DNA of 64,000 nt from Granulicella sp. dw_53 (lineage in GTDB: Bacteria > Acidobacteriota > Terriglobia > Terriglobales > Acidobacteriaceae), in assembly GCF_018449545.1 (NCBI RefSeq), contig NZ_JAAVUR010000018.1:1-64000 (forward strand). Reading direction: 5' to 3'. Shown here piece by piece: positions 39,353 to 63,936 of the stretch (position 1 is the first letter of the stretch; the number at the start of each line of letters is the position of its first letter). The notes below the pieces were generated by a model. The model did not search any database, was not told where the DNA came from, and saw only the letters and a list, made by a program, of their open reading frames with translations. Both the position numbers and the translations under genes were made by a program.

Positions 39353-39426
39353 TGGTTGCCCCCCAGGGATTCGAACCCCGATCGAGCGAGTCAGAGTCGC
39401 TAGTCCTACCATTGAACGAGGGGGCA
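39353..39426 (-). tRNA. tRNA-Gln(CTG)
   Basis: 74 nt with encoded CCA. The acceptor stem TGCCCCC/GGGGGCA, D arm GTTC/GGAC, anticodon stem AGCGA/TCGCT and T arm CGGGG/CCCTG all pair (with G-U pairs). The anticodon loop CTCTGAC places CTG at the anticodon, reading CAG glutamine codons. The discriminator base is A. Confidence 0.95.
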
Positions 39427-56457: not shown

Positions 56458-57051
56458 ATGGGATTAGTACCGATGGTGATCGAGCAGACGAGCCGTGGCG
56501 AACGCGCCTACGACATCTACAGCCGTCTGCTCCGCGACAACATCATTTTTCTGGGCACACCGATCGATGACAACATTGCGAACGTGATCATCGCGCAGAT
56601 GCTGTTTCTGAGCGGTGAGGACCCGGAGAAGGACATCCAGCTTTACATCAATTCGCCGGGCGGATCGATCACGGCCGGACTTGCGATCTACGACACGATG
56701 CAGTACATCAAGAACGACGTGGTGACGTTCTGTATCGGTCAGGCCGCGAGCATGGGCGCGTTCCTGCTGATGGCGGGCAAGAAAGGCAAGCGATTCGCAC
56801 TGCCGAACTCGCGCATCCTGATCCATCAACCATCGATGGGCGGGTTGAGCGGTCAGGCGACCGACATCGACATTCATGCGCGGGAGATTCTGCGCATTCG
56901 CGAGATTACGAACAAGCTGATGAGCCAGAGCACCGGCCAGTCACTGGAACGGATCGAGCGGGATGTGGAGCGCGACTTCATCATGACGGCCGCGCAGTCG
57001 AAGGAGTATGGGATCATCGACGATATTATCGACCGACCCCGTACAACGTAG
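56458..57051 (+). CDS. clpP: ATP-dependent Clp protease proteolytic subunit ClpP
   Basis: 197 residues. The catalytic triad is Ser98 ('GQAASMGAF'), His123 ('LIHQPSMGG') and Asp173 ('ERDFIMTA'). The short N-terminus '[20 protein letters not shown]' (in parts) and '[22 protein letters not shown]' in parts are standard. Subunits form a 14-mer chamber for ClpX or ClpC. AAGAAAGAGAG precedes the ATG. It follows tig by 135 bp and clpX follows by 205 bp. Confidence 0.98.
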
Positions 57052-57256
57052 TTCAGTGCAACGTATTGCAAGCAGGAGCCCGGGCCATTGGCCTGGGTTT
57101 CGGCGTTTTGGCAGTCTGCGTGCACAGTGAGAGTTCTGAATATCACACCTTCGATGTAGATCTTCGGTAACCTCTCGAATGGCTTTGTGCATATGAAACG
57201 GGTGTAAACTTAAGGGAGTCTTTCGTTGTAGGGGACTCTTAGGAGCTTTTGCATTT

Positions 57257-58543
57257 ATGAAAACATCACGGGGCTCGGATGAGTCACTTCGTTGTTCTTT
57301 CTGCCACAAGTCACAGGATGCGGTTGCGAAGCTAATCTCCTCCCCCTCCGACTATCCACGGGCCTATATCTGCGATGAGTGCGTTGCGGTATGCAACTCG
57401 ATTCTCGAGGACGATCGCGCGGAGGCAGCGCCCGGCGCGGCTCCAGCGCATCTTCCCAAGCCGCAAGAGGTCAAGGCGTTTCTGGATGAGTACGTAATCG
57501 GTCAGGACCAGACCAAGAAGAAGCTGGCGGTCGCTGTCTACAATCATTACAAGCGTATCCAGATGAACAAGACCCGCGGCAACGACGTTGAGCTGGCGAA
57601 GTCGAACATCCTGCTGGTGGGGCCGACGGGTTCGGGCAAGACGCTGCTGGCGCAGACCATGGCGCGCATGCTGGACGTGCCCTTCGCGATCGTCGATGCG
57701 ACGACGCTGACCGAGGCCGGCTATGTGGGCGAGGACGTCGAGAACATCATCCTGAAGCTGCTGCAGGCCGCCGATGGAGACGTCACGCGCGCACAGAGCG
57801 GCATGATCTACATCGACGAGATCGACAAGATTGGACGCAAGGATGAGAATCCTTCGATTACACGCGATGTCTCGGGCGAGGGCGTGCAACAGGCGCTGCT
57901 GAAGCTGCTCGAAGGCACGGTCGCGAATGTTCCGCCACAAGGTGGACGCAAGCATCCGCACCAGGAGTTCACCGCCGTCGATACTACGAACATTCTCTTC
58001 ATCTGCGGCGGAGCTTTTGTAGGGTTGGAGAAGGTCATTGGACGCAGGATCGGCAAGAAGGCCCTGGGTTTCAAGGCAATGGTCGACGCGGATGCGAAGG
58101 AAGGCGATGTACGGCCTATCCGGGCGCAGCGCGACGCCGAGTTGCTGCGGCAGGCTGAGCCCCAGGATCTGCTGAAGTACGGGCTGATTCCGGAGTTTGT
58201 CGGACGGCTGCCGGTTCTCGGGATTCTGGATGAGTTGGACGAGGCGGCGCTGATAGAGATTCTGACCAAGCCGAAGAACGCGATCCTGAAGCAGTACGTC
58301 AAGCTGTTTGACTACGAGGGCGTGAAGGTTACGTTCACCGACGACGCCGCGAAGGAGATCGCCCGCGAGGCTCTGAATCGCAAGGTTGGCGCACGAGGAC
58401 TCAGGATGATTCTGGAAGAGCTGATGCTCGACCTGATGTACTACGTCCCGGGCAACAAGAAGGTAAAAGAACTCACCATCACGGCCGAGATGGTTCTGAA
58501 GCATAGCCTGACTCTGCCGATCCTACTGGAAAAGGCTGGCTAA
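57257..58543 (+). CDS. clpX: ATP-dependent Clp protease ATP-binding subunit ClpX
   Basis: 428 residues. The N-terminal zinc-binding domain has Cys13, Cys16, Cys39 and Cys42 ('CSFC' and 'CDEC'). The AAA domain has Walker A GPTGSGKT (122-129), Walker B '[12 protein letters not shown]', and the ClpX pore loop '[10 protein letters not shown]' follows Walker A. It unfolds tagged proteins for ClpP. Length and domain order are normal. It is followed 38 bp later by the GDSL hydrolase gene rather than directly by lon. Confidence 0.98.
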
Positions 58544-58581
58544 ATCTGCACGTACGTTCGATCCGACAGGCCTTCCCTACG

Positions 58582-59442
58582 TTGGCGTTACTCCTGTTGC
58601 TGAGCCCGGCTCAGGGCTGTTGGGCTCAGGAGCCGAGCGTTGTAGTTAATGAAAACCCTGCGGTTTTGCCTGTACCGCAGGCAGGCGATTGGTGGCTCGC
58701 GCGCCATCTGGACCGATTGGTCCAGGTCGAGGCAGGCGGAGTGGACCTGTTGCTGATAGGCGACTCAATCACCCAAAACTTCGAGAAGACAGGACCGGCG
58801 CCCGATGAGGTCTTCTACCCCGCATGGGAGGAGTTCTTTGCGCCGCATCATGCGCTGAATCTGGGCTACTCCGGGGATCAGACGCAGAATGTGCTGTGGC
58901 GGCTGCGGCACGGCGAGGTGGACGGGCTGGCGCCCAAGGATGTCGTACTGCTGATCGGGACAAATAATACCGTCGCGAAGCCGAATGGCACGTTAGAGCA
59001 GAGCGCTGAACAGGTTACGGCGGGCGTCGAGGCGGTGGTGGACGAGTTGCAGGAGCGCCTGCCGGAGTCGAAGATTTTGCTGGTGGAGATTCTTCCTTCT
59101 GGCATATCCGCTACGAAATCTGCCAAGGACGCAGCGGTAAATGCAGCTCTGCGAGCGCGATACAAGGCAAGTGAAGAGGTACGGTGCCTGGACGTCAGCT
59201 CCCTCTTCCTGAAAGACGGCGTGCTAAACCGCTCATTATTTTATGATCCACGGATGAAGACGCCGCAGGAGCCTCTGCATCCGGATACGGTGGGGCAAAG
59301 AAGATTGGCGAAGGCGATCTCGGAGGCTCTCTATGGCCCTTCGGGAACGGCCAGTGGGAAGGGCCGGGGTCGCACTGCTCCGCGACACGCATTACAATCA
59401 TCGGATGCCGCTGATGGCGCCGTGAATCCGGGCGCGGTCTGA
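58582..59442 (+). CDS. GDSL/SGNH-type hydrolase (PAF-acetylhydrolase-like)
   Basis: About 286 residues from TTG 58582; no ATG or GTG is in frame between the clpX stop and this point, so the exact start is uncertain. The N-terminus is a signal peptide ('[15 protein letters not shown]'). SGNH blocks: '[11 protein letters not shown]' (Ser), '[14 protein letters not shown]' (Gly), 'LLIGTNNT' (Asn) and '[10 protein letters not shown]' (Asp/His). It is probably a secreted esterase acting on lipid or sugar acetyl groups. It sits between clpX and lon, with 20 bp to lon. Confidence 0.88.
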
Positions 59443-59462
59443 AACGTCTAATTGGGAGAGCG

Positions 59463-61889
59463 ATGACAAATCAACCTAAAGCAGCAGTACCAACCGGTGA
59501 AGTTCGCAAGTTGCCCATGATGCCCATCCGGGACATGGTGATCTTTCCCCATATGATGACGCCCTTTGTCGTTGGGCGTGAGTCGAGCGTGCGCGCTCTC
59601 GAAGAGGCGTTGAACGGCGACCGGAAGATCTTTCTGGCGACGCAGCACGACGCTTCGGTCGACGAGCCGAACGCGGATGATATCTACGAGACAGGAACCA
59701 TCGGCAACATCGTCCAGAGCGTGAAGATGCCGGATGGCAATATCAAGGTCCTGGTGGAGGGCGTGGAGCGGGCGCGAGCCACCGAGGTCAACGACGTCGA
59801 CGGCTTCTTCGTCGCGACTGTTCGCACCGGCCAGACACAGCTTGAGCTGACACCGCAGGTAGAGCAGCTTATGCAGCGTGTCCACTCGCTCTTCGAGCAG
59901 TACGTGAAGCTGCAGCAGAGCCTGAACTACGAGACGATGGCCGCAAGTGTGCGCGCGGACGAGGCAGCCAAGCTCGCCGACACGATCGCGGCGAACCTGC
60001 AGCTCTCGATCGAAGAGAAACAGCAGCTCCTGGAGGTATTCGATCCGGAGATGCGTCTGGCTCGGGTCGCCGATGTGCTCGACCTCGCCATCGAGAAGCT
60101 GAACATGGACCGGACCATCCAGTCGCGCGTGAAGCGGCAGATGGAGAAGGCGCAGAAGGAGTACTACCTCAACGAGAAGATCAAGGCCATCCAGAAGGAG
60201 CTCGGCCGCGGTGAGAAGAGCGAGTTCGATGAGCTGAAGAAGAAGATCGAAGCGGCGGGGATGCCCAAGGACGTGCTCGATAAGAGCATGCAGGAGCTGA
60301 AGAAGCTGGAGGCCATGCCACCGATGTCGGCGGAGTCAACAGTTTCGAGGAACTACCTGGACTGGCTGCTGGCGGTGCCGTGGAAGAAGAAGTCCAAGGA
60401 GATCCGCTCCATCGAGCATGCGGAACAGATTCTGAACGAAGACCACTACGGGCTCGAGAAGATCAAGGACCGCATCCTGGAGTTTCTGGCGGTGCGGCAG
60501 TTGGTGAAGAATCCAAAGGGATCGATCCTGTGCTTTGTTGGGCCTCCGGGTGTGGGCAAGACTTCGCTCGGAATGTCGATCGCCAAGGCTACCGGGCGGA
60601 AGTTTGTACGGATGTCGCTGGGTGGCGTGCGGGACGAGGCGGAGATTCGCGGGCATCGGCGTACGTACATCGGAGCGCTGCCGGGGCAGATTATCCAGTC
60701 GATGAAGAAGGCTGGGACGAAGAATCCGGTGTTCATGCTGGACGAGATCGATAAGATGGCTTCGGACTTCCGGGGAGATCCGGCGAGTGCGCTGCTGGAG
60801 GTGCTGGATCCGGAGCAGAACACGTCGTTCCAGGATCACTACCTCGATGTCGAGTACGACCTCTCGCAGGTGTTGTTTGTCGCTACGGCGAATGTGCTCG
60901 ACACCATTCCTGGTCCGTTGCAGGACCGCATGGAGATCATCCGGCTCCATGGGTACACCGAGGTCGAGAAGCTCGAGATCGCCAAGCAGTATTTGGTCAA
61001 GAAGCAGCGCGAGGGGAATGGTCTCTCGACCGAGCAACTGGTCTTCGAGGACTCGGCGTTAAAGGCGATCATTCGTGGCTACACGCGCGAGGCGGGCGTC
61101 CGTAACCTGGAGCGCGAGATCGGCAACGTGGGCCGCAAGGTGGCACGCAAGGTAGTGCAGACCGGACCGGAGCATAAGGAACTGGTCACTGGCGACACGC
61201 TGGAGAGCCTGCTAGGGGTAGCGAAGTTCCGCGACTCCGAGGTGCATGCGAAGAGCGAGGTTGGGCTGGTGACGGGGCTTGCCTGGACCTCAGTTGGCGG
61301 CACGATCCTGCAGACAGAGGTTCAGGTGCTGGATGGCAAGGGCAAGCTCTCTGCTACCGGACAACTGGGCGATGTGATGAAGGAGTCGGCCGAGGCCGCG
61401 TTGACCTACACCCGTTCGAGAGCTTCGCAGTTGGGGCTCAAGAAGGACTTCTACCGTAACGTGGATATTCACATCCATGTGCCGGAGGGAGCGATTCCGA
61501 AGGACGGTCCTTCCGCAGGCATCACCATCGCTACCGGGCTCGCGAGCGCGCTGACGAAGATCAAAGTTCGCCGCGATATCGCGATGACCGGCGAGATCAC
61601 CCTACGGGGCAAGGTACTGCCGATCGGTGGGCTGAAGGAGAAGCTGCTGGCGGCGCACCGTGCGGGGATCTTCGAGGCGATCTTGCCGGAGGACAACCGC
61701 AAGGACCTGGCCGATCTACCGGAGCTGCTGAAGTCGTCGATGAAGCTGCACTTTGTCGAGCAGATGGACGAGGTTCTGCAGATCGCACTCGAAGGCAAGC
61801 TGCCCGAGCTGATGGAAGAGACCCCAGAGGCGTTGACGGGAGTGATTCCGGCTCCGATCGAAGGACCTCAGCCAGTCTCCCGCCAGTAA
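59463..61889 (+). CDS. lon: ATP-dependent protease Lon (LonA)
   Basis: 808 residues. The N-terminal substrate-binding LON domain begins '[20 protein letters not shown]' (in parts). The AAA domain has Walker A GPPGVGKT (360-367). The protease domain has the Ser684-Lys727 dyad ('[10 protein letters not shown]' and '[10 protein letters not shown]'). It degrades damaged and regulatory proteins. GGGAG lies about 6 nt before the ATG. It is separated from clpX only by the GDSL hydrolase gene, and ends at a strong bidirectional terminator. Confidence 0.98.
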
Positions 61890-62332: not shown

Positions 62333-62617
62333 TTAGGCCTGGCAGCCACCGGCGATGGAGGGGATGAGCATAACTTCGTCGCCATCCTGGAAGGCGTACG
62401 TCTCGCCGCCGAGGAAGCGGATATCCTCGTCGTTGATGTAGATGTTGATGAAGCGGCGAAGCTTTCCGTTCTCGTCCTTGATCTGGGTGCTGAGCGCGGG
62501 AAAGGATTGGTCGATATCCGCGAGCAGGCCAGGCAGGTTCGAAGCTGCGGAGTCGAACTGTTTGCAGCCATCGGTGTGACGGGTAAAGGCAGTAGGGATA
62601 AATACTTTCACGGACAT
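62333..62617 (-). CDS. MoaD/ThiS-family ubiquitin-like protein next to threonine synthase
   Basis: 94 residues from ATG 62617. It has the beta-grasp layout of MoaD/ThiS sulfur carriers: 'VKVFIPTAFTRHTDG', 'FPALSTQIKDENGKLRRFIN' in parts, 'IYINDEDIRFL', 'LQDGDEVMLIP'-like 'FQDGDEVMLIPSIAGG'. The Gly-Gly that carries thiocarboxylate is followed by Cys-Gln-Ala, so it is not terminal and would need trimming. It starts 35 bp after the threonine synthase stop, on the same strand. Mycobacterial CysO, which works with the cysteine synthase CysM and peptidase Mec, is the nearest known parallel; the role here is not known. Confidence 0.85.
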   Translation of the reverse strand: MSVKVFIPTAFTRHTDGCKQFDSAASNLPGLLADIDQSFPALSTQIKDENGKLRRFINIYINDEDIRFLGGETYAFQDGDEVMLIPSIAGGCQA

Positions 62618-62652
62618 TAGGTTCTCCAGCGTGATCCAGGTTTCGGAGTCGT

Positions 62653-63936
62653 TCAAGCTCCGGCAGTGGCGAGTTCAGATTCAGTGGTACCGTCGAGCTC
62701 CCGAAGGTAGGCATCGAAGTCGGCAAGGCGTGGGCGTATGGCACGGGCATCGACGTGGAGGTAGCTGTTGGCTAGAGCGTCGGTTGTCTTGAGACCGTTC
62801 CCGGTGATGCAGGAGACGGTGATCTGGTCGGGCGTGATGCGGCCCTGCGCGTAGAGACGAGCGGTAACGGAGGTGGTGACGCCACCGGCGGTCTCGGTGA
62901 AGATGCCCTCGGTCTCAGCCAGCTCTTGGATGCCAGCGACGATCTCGACATCGGAGACATCTTCGGCCCAGCCGCCCTCGCCGCGGATCATCTTGGCCGC
63001 CGCAGGGCCGTCCGCGGGATTACCGATAGCAAGGGACCGGGCGATGGTGTTGGGACGCTGGGGCACGATGTCCTCAGTTCCCTGCTTGACGGCGGTCGTG
63101 ATGGGCGAGCAGCCGGTGGCTTGTGCGCCGAAGAAGCGGACCGGCTTGTCTTCGACCAGGCCGAGGTAGACGAGCTCCTTGAAGGCCTTGCGGATCTTGC
63201 GGATCAACGAACCGCCGGCCATGGGCACAACGACGTTGTCTGGGAGCTGCCAGCCGAGCTGTTCCGCGATCTCGTAGCCCACGGTCTTGGAGCCTTCCGC
63301 GTAGTAGGGGCGGAGATTGACGTTGACGAAGCCCCAGTTGTACTCGTCGGCGATAAGGGTGCAGAGTCGGTTGACGTGATCGTAGTTGCCGTCGATGCGG
63401 ACCAGGCGGGCGCCGTAGACGAGGGTGTTGAGGATCTTGGCTGGCTCGAGGTCGGCGGGCACCAGGATGGTGGCCTTGAGGCCGAGACGGGCGGCCTGTG
63501 CAGCGACGGAGTTAGCCAGGTTGCCGGTGGAGGAGCAACCGACCGTCGTGAAACCGAACTTCTGCGCGTTCGCGAGGGCGACTGAGACGACCCGGTCCTT
63601 GAAGGAGAGGGTGGGAAAGCACACCGCATCGTTCTTGATGTAGAGATTGTTTGCGCCGATGCGCTTGCCGAGGTTCTTCGCGCGAACCAGAGGCGTAAAG
63701 CCGACCGGCAGATCCGGTTGAAAGCCGTCCGGAATGGGGAGCAGCGCCGCATAGCGCCAGATGTTTGCAGGACCTGCGGCGATCGCCTCCCGGGTGAAGA
63801 TGCCGCGTACCGCTTCCAGGTCGTAGGTGATTTCCAGGGGGGCGAGACAGTCGGGGCAGGCGGAGAGGGGTTGGTTCCCAAAGAGCTTGCCACACTCGTT
63901 GCACTTCAGTTCGTACCGGCTACAGGAATAGTTCAT
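62653..63936 (-). CDS. thrC: Threonine synthase
   Basis: 427 residues. A zinc-ribbon start has Cys pairs 'CNEC' and 'CPDC'. The PLP Lys is in 'TLSFKDRVVS', and the phosphate loop is 'CSSTGNLANS'. 'TAGGVTTSVTARL' and 'CITGNGLKTTDAL' are typical of the fold type II threonine synthase. The reaction converts O-phosphohomoserine to threonine and phosphate. It is followed by the MoaD/ThiS-like gene, so the two are probably co-transcribed. A sulfur-linked activity on this fold type cannot be excluded from sequence alone. Confidence 0.93.
   Translation of the reverse strand: MNYSCSRYELKCNECGKLFGNQPLSACPDCLAPLEITYDLEAVRGIFTREAIAAGPANIWRYAALLPIPDGFQPDLPVGFTPLVRAKNLGKRIGANNLYIKNDAVCFPTLSFKDRVVSVALANAQKFGFTTVGCSSTGNLANSVAAQAARLGLKATILVPADLEPAKILNTLVYGARLVRIDGNYDHVNRLCTLIADEYNWGFVNVNLRPYYAEGSKTVGYEIAEQLGWQLPDNVVVPMAGGSLIRKIRKAFKELVYLGLVEDKPVRFFGAQATGCSPITTAVKQGTEDIVPQRPNTIARSLAIGNPADGPAAAKMIRGEGGWAEDVSDVEIVAGIQELAETEGIFTETAGGVTTSVTARLYAQGRITPDQITVSCITGNGLKTTDALANSYLHVDARAIRPRLADFDAYLRELDGTTESELATAGA

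Follow-up and report, generated by a model that had tools for sequence, protein, structure and literature searches.

Gene content and regulation of the locus

Near the end of the analysed stretch of Granulicella sp. dw_53 DNA (64,000 nucleotides in full, hereafter the window) lie two minus-strand genes, one encoding a threonine-synthase-family PLP enzyme, which we call ThrC-A, and one encoding a small protein with the fold of sulfur carriers. A SAM-I riboswitch stands 120 bp 5′ of the ThrC-A start codon, just past the window end. The features are, in order of position:

62333..62617, minus strand: ThiS/MoaD-fold sulfur carrier (MetO-like), 94 aa, ATG start, C-terminus IPSIAGGCQA
62336..62344, minus strand: carrier tail Cys-Gln-Ala, three residues past Gly-Gly
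62345..62350, minus strand: Gly-Gly codons of the carrier, present in 40/40 orthologs examined
62624..62627, minus strand: GGAG, possible ribosome-binding site for the carrier ATG, judged by eye
62653..63936, minus strand: threonine-synthase-family PLP enzyme ThrC-A (proposed homocysteine synthase, MetM-like), 427 aa
63283..63324, minus strand: NVNLRPYYAEGSKT motif of ThrC-A, unlike the canonical NSVNP-Y/H-RLEGQKT (motif comparison)
63598..63600, minus strand: codon for Lys113 (SFKD motif), which is expected to bind PLP and does not vary in 14/14 aligned orthologs
63847..63903, minus strand: N-terminal CxxC...CxxC, zinc-ribbon-like (Cys12, 15, 27, 30; 14 orthologs aligned)
Contig C10:64056-64161 (L060 10056-10161), minus strand: SAM-I riboswitch RF00162, 68.0 bits, threshold 44.4

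With 35 bp between the enzyme stop and the carrier ATG, the sequence confirms what the first-pass annotation of this DNA had described, a carrier ending Gly-Gly-Cys-Gln-Ala 35 bp after a thrC-like gene. In a profile search the carrier matched PF02597 (ThiS, E 3.5e-10), and its top solved-structure relatives were M. tuberculosis CysO (3dwg_C, E 1.9e-20) and a ThiS/MoaD protein (4n6e_B, E 1.9e-16). Its tail would have to be removed before the C-terminus could be adenylated.

ThrC-A matched both PF00291 (PALP, E 8.6e-67) and the threonine synthase model TIGR00260 (thrC; 276 bits, cut-off 167), and it shares with canonical class II threonine synthases the fold, the SFKD lysine (Lys113, which we take from the fold to be the PLP lysine) and this match above the cut-off. 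Among its N-terminal cysteines, which may bind zinc, Cys27 is invariant and Cys12, Cys15 and Cys30 are each at least 90% conserved across 14 orthologs. The substrate site is different: ThrC-A has FPTLSFKDRVV and NVNLRPYYAEGSKT, whereas canonical threonine synthases have NPTGSFKD and NSVNPYRLEGQKT, two motifs that are missing from ThrC-A and whose residues are presumably the contacts to the substrate phosphate. The score against TIGR00260 would suit an ordinary threonine synthase accompanied by a passenger or regulatory carrier, while the altered substrate-site motif argues against one. In a 24-protein tree, several deep forks of which were unresolved, ThrC-A clustered with relatives from Cyanobacteria, actinobacteria and Omnitrophota and was set apart by a long branch from ThrC-B, the canonical enzyme of the same genome. 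Its closest named relative is from Edaphobacter lichenicola (90% identity), and it is 55-58% identical to the enzymes of cyanobacterial loci and 54% to that of the actinobacterium Nonomuraea.

The riboswitch is predicted from the sequence to control the thrC-A/carrier operon. It was detected at 18 of 21 family loci (20 kb each), always on the same strand and upstream of thrC-A, as the sole Rfam match across those 21 loci. Over the 62 acidobacterial loci scanned, a total that includes no fewer than two genomes twice and in which unnamed family genomes are classed as acidobacterial by similarity, it lies upstream of thrC-A at 54 and is absent from 8. Terriglobus roseus (L091) is among the bacteria whose locus carries both the pair and the riboswitch. 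The loci of one unclassified bacterium and of Nonomuraea also carry it, and it was not found at the 8/8 cyanobacterial, three Omnitrophota and one Dormibacterota loci scanned. An Rfam scan detected no SAM-I riboswitch at the cysO operon described below, at ThrC-B or within the 64-kb window, where the sole match was a tRNA (39356-39426, minus strand). Elsewhere, an Acido-Lenti-1 RNA (RF01687; L119 426-471) lies close to a pair locus.

Conservation and spread of the enzyme–carrier pair

Orthologous carriers (at least 52% identity) were found in 40 of the 80 family genomes, and all 40 adjoin an ortholog of ThrC-A; 30 of these adjacencies were established from sequence (two with the enzyme gene cut by a contig end) and 10 from coordinates. 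ThrC-A orthologs (at least 66% identity) were likewise counted in 40 of the 80 family genomes. Since every orthologous carrier adjoins the enzyme gene, the arrangement represents more than chance adjacency, and this conserved pairing supports the earlier proposal of a sulfur-carrier pathway linked to a PLP enzyme. The 80 top loci of a pattern scan that reached past the family, a selected set, span Acidobacteriota, Cyanobacteria, Omnitrophota and Dormibacterota, with a same-strand downstream carrier at 74 of them, and within 350 nt at 72. In Nonomuraea (L204), the order of riboswitch, enzyme and carrier is as in Granulicella sp. dw_53.

A pair of this kind is known from Streptomyces. Hasebe et al. 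2024 (Appl Environ Microbiol), as described in passages of PMC12172450, reported the homocysteine synthase MetM, which converts O-phosphohomoserine to homocysteine; by the same account, the sulfur-carrier gene metO adjoins metM, a SAM riboswitch lies upstream (S. albulus), and homologues occur in cyanobacteria. The Granulicella locus thus has the same ThrC-like PLP enzyme with an adjacent carrier gene and an upstream SAM riboswitch, and O-phosphohomoserine is its proposed substrate. Should ThrC-A be a homocysteine synthase, its sulfur could come from the carrier or from free sulfide, in the latter case with the carrier serving tRNA thiolation or molybdopterin, or being a mere accessory. Na2S was the sulfur source in the MetM assay, according to passages of PMC12172450, and two genomes (G011 and G013) have ThrC-A with no carrier found beside its gene, G013 also having the riboswitch; both observations fit free sulfide. 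On the other side stand the adjacency of all 40 orthologous carriers to ThrC-A and the carrier's CysO type, the known partner of CysO being a PLP enzyme (passages of PMC3227635). We therefore regard the carrier as a reasonably likely sulfur donor, and a homocysteine synthase fed by free sulfide as doubtful.

A separate threonine synthase and the gene neighborhood

Granulicella sp. dw_53 encodes three ThrC-like proteins. One of them, ThrC-B, is encoded on contig C55 by a gene that overlaps one for homoserine kinase (TIGR00191), and it has the motifs of canonical enzymes. Because a canonical ThrC and a homoserine kinase are encoded elsewhere in the genome, ThrC-A is unlikely to serve this cell as its threonine synthase. 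Canonical ThrC-B was present in 36 of the 40 genomes with the pair, and in 31/31 of those at least 90% complete, and ThrC-A would therefore not be needed for threonine.

In some relatives the pair lies within lysC/hom/thrB operons; in G018, for instance, six same-strand genes encode ThrC-A, the carrier, aspartokinase, ThrC-B, homoserine kinase and homoserine dehydrogenase. Of 23 loci, seven have a homoserine dehydrogenase gene at most eight genes from the pair and three have an aspartokinase gene there; four of the loci with such neighbors were confirmed by Pfam or NCBIfam. At locus L064 a split methionine synthase gene (metH) is close to the pair. In G011 and G004, thrC-A stands in lysC-hom-thrC order without a riboswitch, which would suit an ordinary threonine synthase. 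The same can be said of a Microcystis ThrC homologue with threonine synthase activity in vitro, alongside deaminase activity; those who studied it question whether it serves fully as MetM in vivo (passages of PMC12172450). Against this, the canonical ThrC-B with thrB is also present. Granulicella sp. dw_53 and three relatives (4/23 loci) have the pair beside lon, clpX and clpP on the opposite strand; in the window, clpP, clpX, an SGNH-hydrolase-like gene and lon (56458-61889, plus strand) converge on the pair.

Homocysteine routes across the family

We next considered the distribution of other genes for homocysteine synthesis. A metX-like gene was called in 23 of the 80 family genomes at a TIGR01392 score of at least 322 bits, a threshold set in the present analysis (the next score is 156, and no family or control genome attains the curated cut-off of 500). 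It was present in 2/40 genomes with the pair, 21/38 with neither gene and 0/2 with the enzyme alone (pair vs neither gene, Fisher p 8e-7, phylogeny ignored), and, among genomes at least 90% complete, in 2/31 with the pair vs 18/29 without (p 5e-6, phylogeny ignored). metA was found in six of the 80, five of which have the pair. Counting either gene, metX or metA occurs in 7/40 pair genomes vs 22/38 with neither gene of the pair (Fisher p 4e-4, phylogeny ignored), and both genes are missing from 33 of the 40 pair genomes, Granulicella sp. dw_53 included.

A genome that has no metX need not use the pair pathway: metX and metA are likewise missing from 16 of the 38 genomes that do not carry the pair, and a search for DUF39/HcyBio gave 0/80 family genomes. 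Ten genomes at least 90% complete are without metX, metA, DUF39 and the pair (G001, G010, G023, G025, G040, G041, G042, G054, G060 and G063). PF01053 enzymes are non-discriminating because they occur in 78 of the 80 family genomes; Granulicella sp. dw_53 has two, the best at C10:100757. One of the two might, like its plant counterpart, turn O-phosphohomoserine into cystathionine. In the same genome, a cysteine/cystathionine synthase-like gene is present as two fragments at contig ends (C10, 101982-102329; C14, 81591-82238), which terminate there in glycine-coding low-complexity sequence and probably reflect an assembly break; a PF01053 gene adjoins the C10 fragment. In G029, the gene immediately 5′ of the metX-like gene encodes a JAMM-domain protein (contig C6, 80427-80786).

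Taken together, the SAM-I riboswitch, the rarity of the pair with metX and the separate ThrC with homoserine kinase point to a role in methionine rather than threonine synthesis. The same three observations weigh against the regulatory link to threonine synthesis that had been suggested for the pair. A SAM riboswitch and a negative association with metX would also be unexpected for a threonine gene, and we consider it very unlikely that ThrC-A is an ordinary threonine synthase.

Possible activation and trimming of the carrier

A single Prok-JAB protein is encoded in the Granulicella sp. dw_53 genome, along with two proteins of the ThiF type. The Prok-JAB protein and the ThiF protein with a rhodanese domain belong to an operon of cysM, mec, cysO and moeZ on contig C3, whose CysO ends GGCCR. 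A genome-wide search for a JAMM peptidase and a ThiF/MoeB-type E1, as the first-pass annotation had proposed, thus recovered both, and its remark that the window holds no JAMM peptidase stands, since the sole Prok-JAB match of the genome is on contig C3. The E1 and JAMM enzymes of this operon may charge and trim both carriers, by analogy with mycobacterial MoeZR, which acts on both MoaD2 and CysO and provides a precedent for a shared E1 (passages of PMC3227635). Members of the JAMM family were found in 76 of the 80 family genomes, among them 39 of the 40 that have the pair. A homoserine dehydrogenase gene (L052 6190-7536, contig C3) lies ~0.9 kb from the operon on the opposite strand, with one gene between.

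A further reading is that the pair constitutes a second CysM-CysO system that uses O-phosphoserine to form cysteine or some other thiol-containing amino acid. CysO is the carrier's top solved relative, and ThrC-fold enzymes can accept O-phosphoserine, as cysteate synthase does, both of which would count in its favor. However, a complete cysM-mec-cysO-moeZ operon is already present in the genome, the MetO and CysO carriers form separate clades in a tree, the operon partners of the pair are homoserine genes, and ThrC-A scored only 37 bits against the cysteate synthase model (cut-off 325). We consider such a system highly improbable.

C-terminal tails after Gly-Gly

We then compared carrier C-termini. 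Gly-Gly is kept in all 40 family carriers of the MetO type; 35 of them extend 1 to 28 residues past it and five have no tail, and cysteine directly follows Gly-Gly in 12/40. The Gly-Gly-Cys tail anticipated as a conserved feature is thus conserved in its Gly-Gly, but not in its cysteine or in the presence of a tail. Among CysO-type carriers, 34/34 examined (of 65 matches) have residues past Gly-Gly, and tails range from 1 to 54 residues when both types are taken together. Since MetO and CysO-type carriers are both tailed, the tail is a general trait of the carriers of this lineage rather than a mark of the pair. The organism's own MoaD-like protein (L001 1429-1758, contig C6), whose gene overlaps a moaE-like gene, ends SGGRGL, so that Gly-Gly is non-terminal there too. 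We accordingly rejected the idea that the tail singles out the pair, given the 34/34 tailed CysO-type carriers examined and the GGRGL ending of this MoaD. JAMM presence was uninformative as an explanation for tail presence, as the family occurs in 76/80 genomes. Carriers ending exactly at Gly-Gly were found at 20/20 cyanobacterial loci and in Nonomuraea (L204).

The cysteine enrichment of the tails is real. Cysteine makes up 20.6% (67/326) of MetO tail residues and 12.4% (38/307) of CysO-type tail residues, vs 2.1 to 3.8% in the two alternative frames of the same DNA, 3.3 to 5.1% in the 90 nt past the stop and 0.64% in carrier cores (30 carriers). Seven MetO carriers form a Cys-rich clade with the common motif CCSYCGxExCxC, within which codon differences were 98 synonymous vs 45 nonsynonymous (21 pairs, 7 members). 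On the basis of the in-frame cysteine enrichment over control and the mainly synonymous differences in this seven-member clade, we rejected spurious read-through as the origin of the tails. One possibility, which we raise tentatively, is that the variable Cys-rich tails of CysO and MetO precursors are functional, sensing cysteine, metal or redox state and timing the exposure of Gly-Gly by the JAMM enzyme. If so, the CCSYCGxExCxC motif of the seven-carrier clade would be a tail turned conserved module, and an encoded Gly-Gly-Cys would mimic the Gly-Gly-cysteine adduct cleaved by Mec.

Proposed pathway and comparison with known systems

Overall, we propose, with a probability of roughly 0.84, that the pair is a SAM-repressed, O-phosphohomoserine-dependent homocysteine synthase together with its sulfur carrier, of the MetM-MetO type. 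In this pathway, the JAMM peptidase encoded with cysM, cysO and moeZ would first trim the residues past Gly-Gly, after which the rhodanese-bearing E1 of the MoeZ type would adenylate the carrier C-terminus and convert it to a thiocarboxylate. ThrC-A would then act on O-phosphohomoserine, with phosphate eliminated via PLP and sulfur, not water, added at the gamma carbon to give homocysteine, perhaps first as a carrier adduct to be released by the JAMM enzyme. Methionine synthase would convert homocysteine to methionine, and SAM would finally close the riboswitch.

The resemblance to MetM-MetO extends to the enzyme, ThrC-A being nearer, by shared motifs and tree position, to the homologues from Nonomuraea and cyanobacteria than to canonical ThrC, and to the apparent role of the pair, which seems to stand in for MetX/MetA, absent from 33/40 pair genomes (phylogeny ignored). 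The acidobacterial system differs in that 35/40 family carriers have tails, whereas the carrier of L204 and 20/20 cyanobacterial carriers have none, and in that the E1 and JAMM genes of Granulicella sp. dw_53 belong to a separate cysO operon. In carriers of the QbsE type the residues past Gly-Gly are trimmed by a JAMM enzyme; a tail and a JAMM gene are both present here, and the tail may be trimmed in a similar way.

A protein-thiocarboxylate route to homocysteine, HcyS-HcyD-HcyF of Wolinella, was reportedly described by Krishnamoorthy and Begley in 2011; the C-terminal extra residue of HcyS is said to be removed by a JAMM enzyme, and the PLP enzyme is said to be an O-acetylhomoserine sulfhydrylase of the PF01053 type. 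The partner at the Granulicella locus is instead of the PF00291 ThrC type, presumably using O-phosphohomoserine, and there is no PF01053 gene at the pair. The mycobacterial CysO-CysM-Mec-MoeZ system (passages of PMC3227635) shares with Granulicella sp. dw_53 a CysO-like carrier, a PLP enzyme, and a rhodanese E1 and JAMM peptidase in the genome. However, the PLP enzyme of the pair is of the ThrC type, that of the CysM type lying on contig C3 in the separate, genuine CysO operon, and the E1 and JAMM genes are not adjacent to the pair.

A literature search that combined threonine synthase with MoaD and sulfur carrier proteins gave no paper. A term search of Iyer 2006 (PMC1779556) did not find 'threonine synthase', the main text of Sun 2013 (PMC3766115) contains neither 'threonine synthase' nor 'thrC', and PMC4239095 mentions thrC once, within a MetR regulon. 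The pathway had been put forward as possibly unstudied. For Acidobacteria this agrees with our literature searches, which found no earlier report of a MetM-MetO system; the Streptomyces route itself is known, with MetM/MetO and a Microcystis homologue both treated in passages of PMC12172450.

Implications for methionine synthesis in Acidobacteria

The Cys-rich carrier tails pose a new question about the maturation of prokaryotic ubiquitin-like precursors. For genome annotation, genes of the ThrC-A type match the threonine synthase model, and where they are annotated accordingly, methionine prototrophs would look like auxotrophs. If the pair is a homocysteine synthase, the Streptomyces route would span several phyla, and, if it is under SAM control as proposed, it would fill a gap in methionine synthesis for many Acidobacteria.
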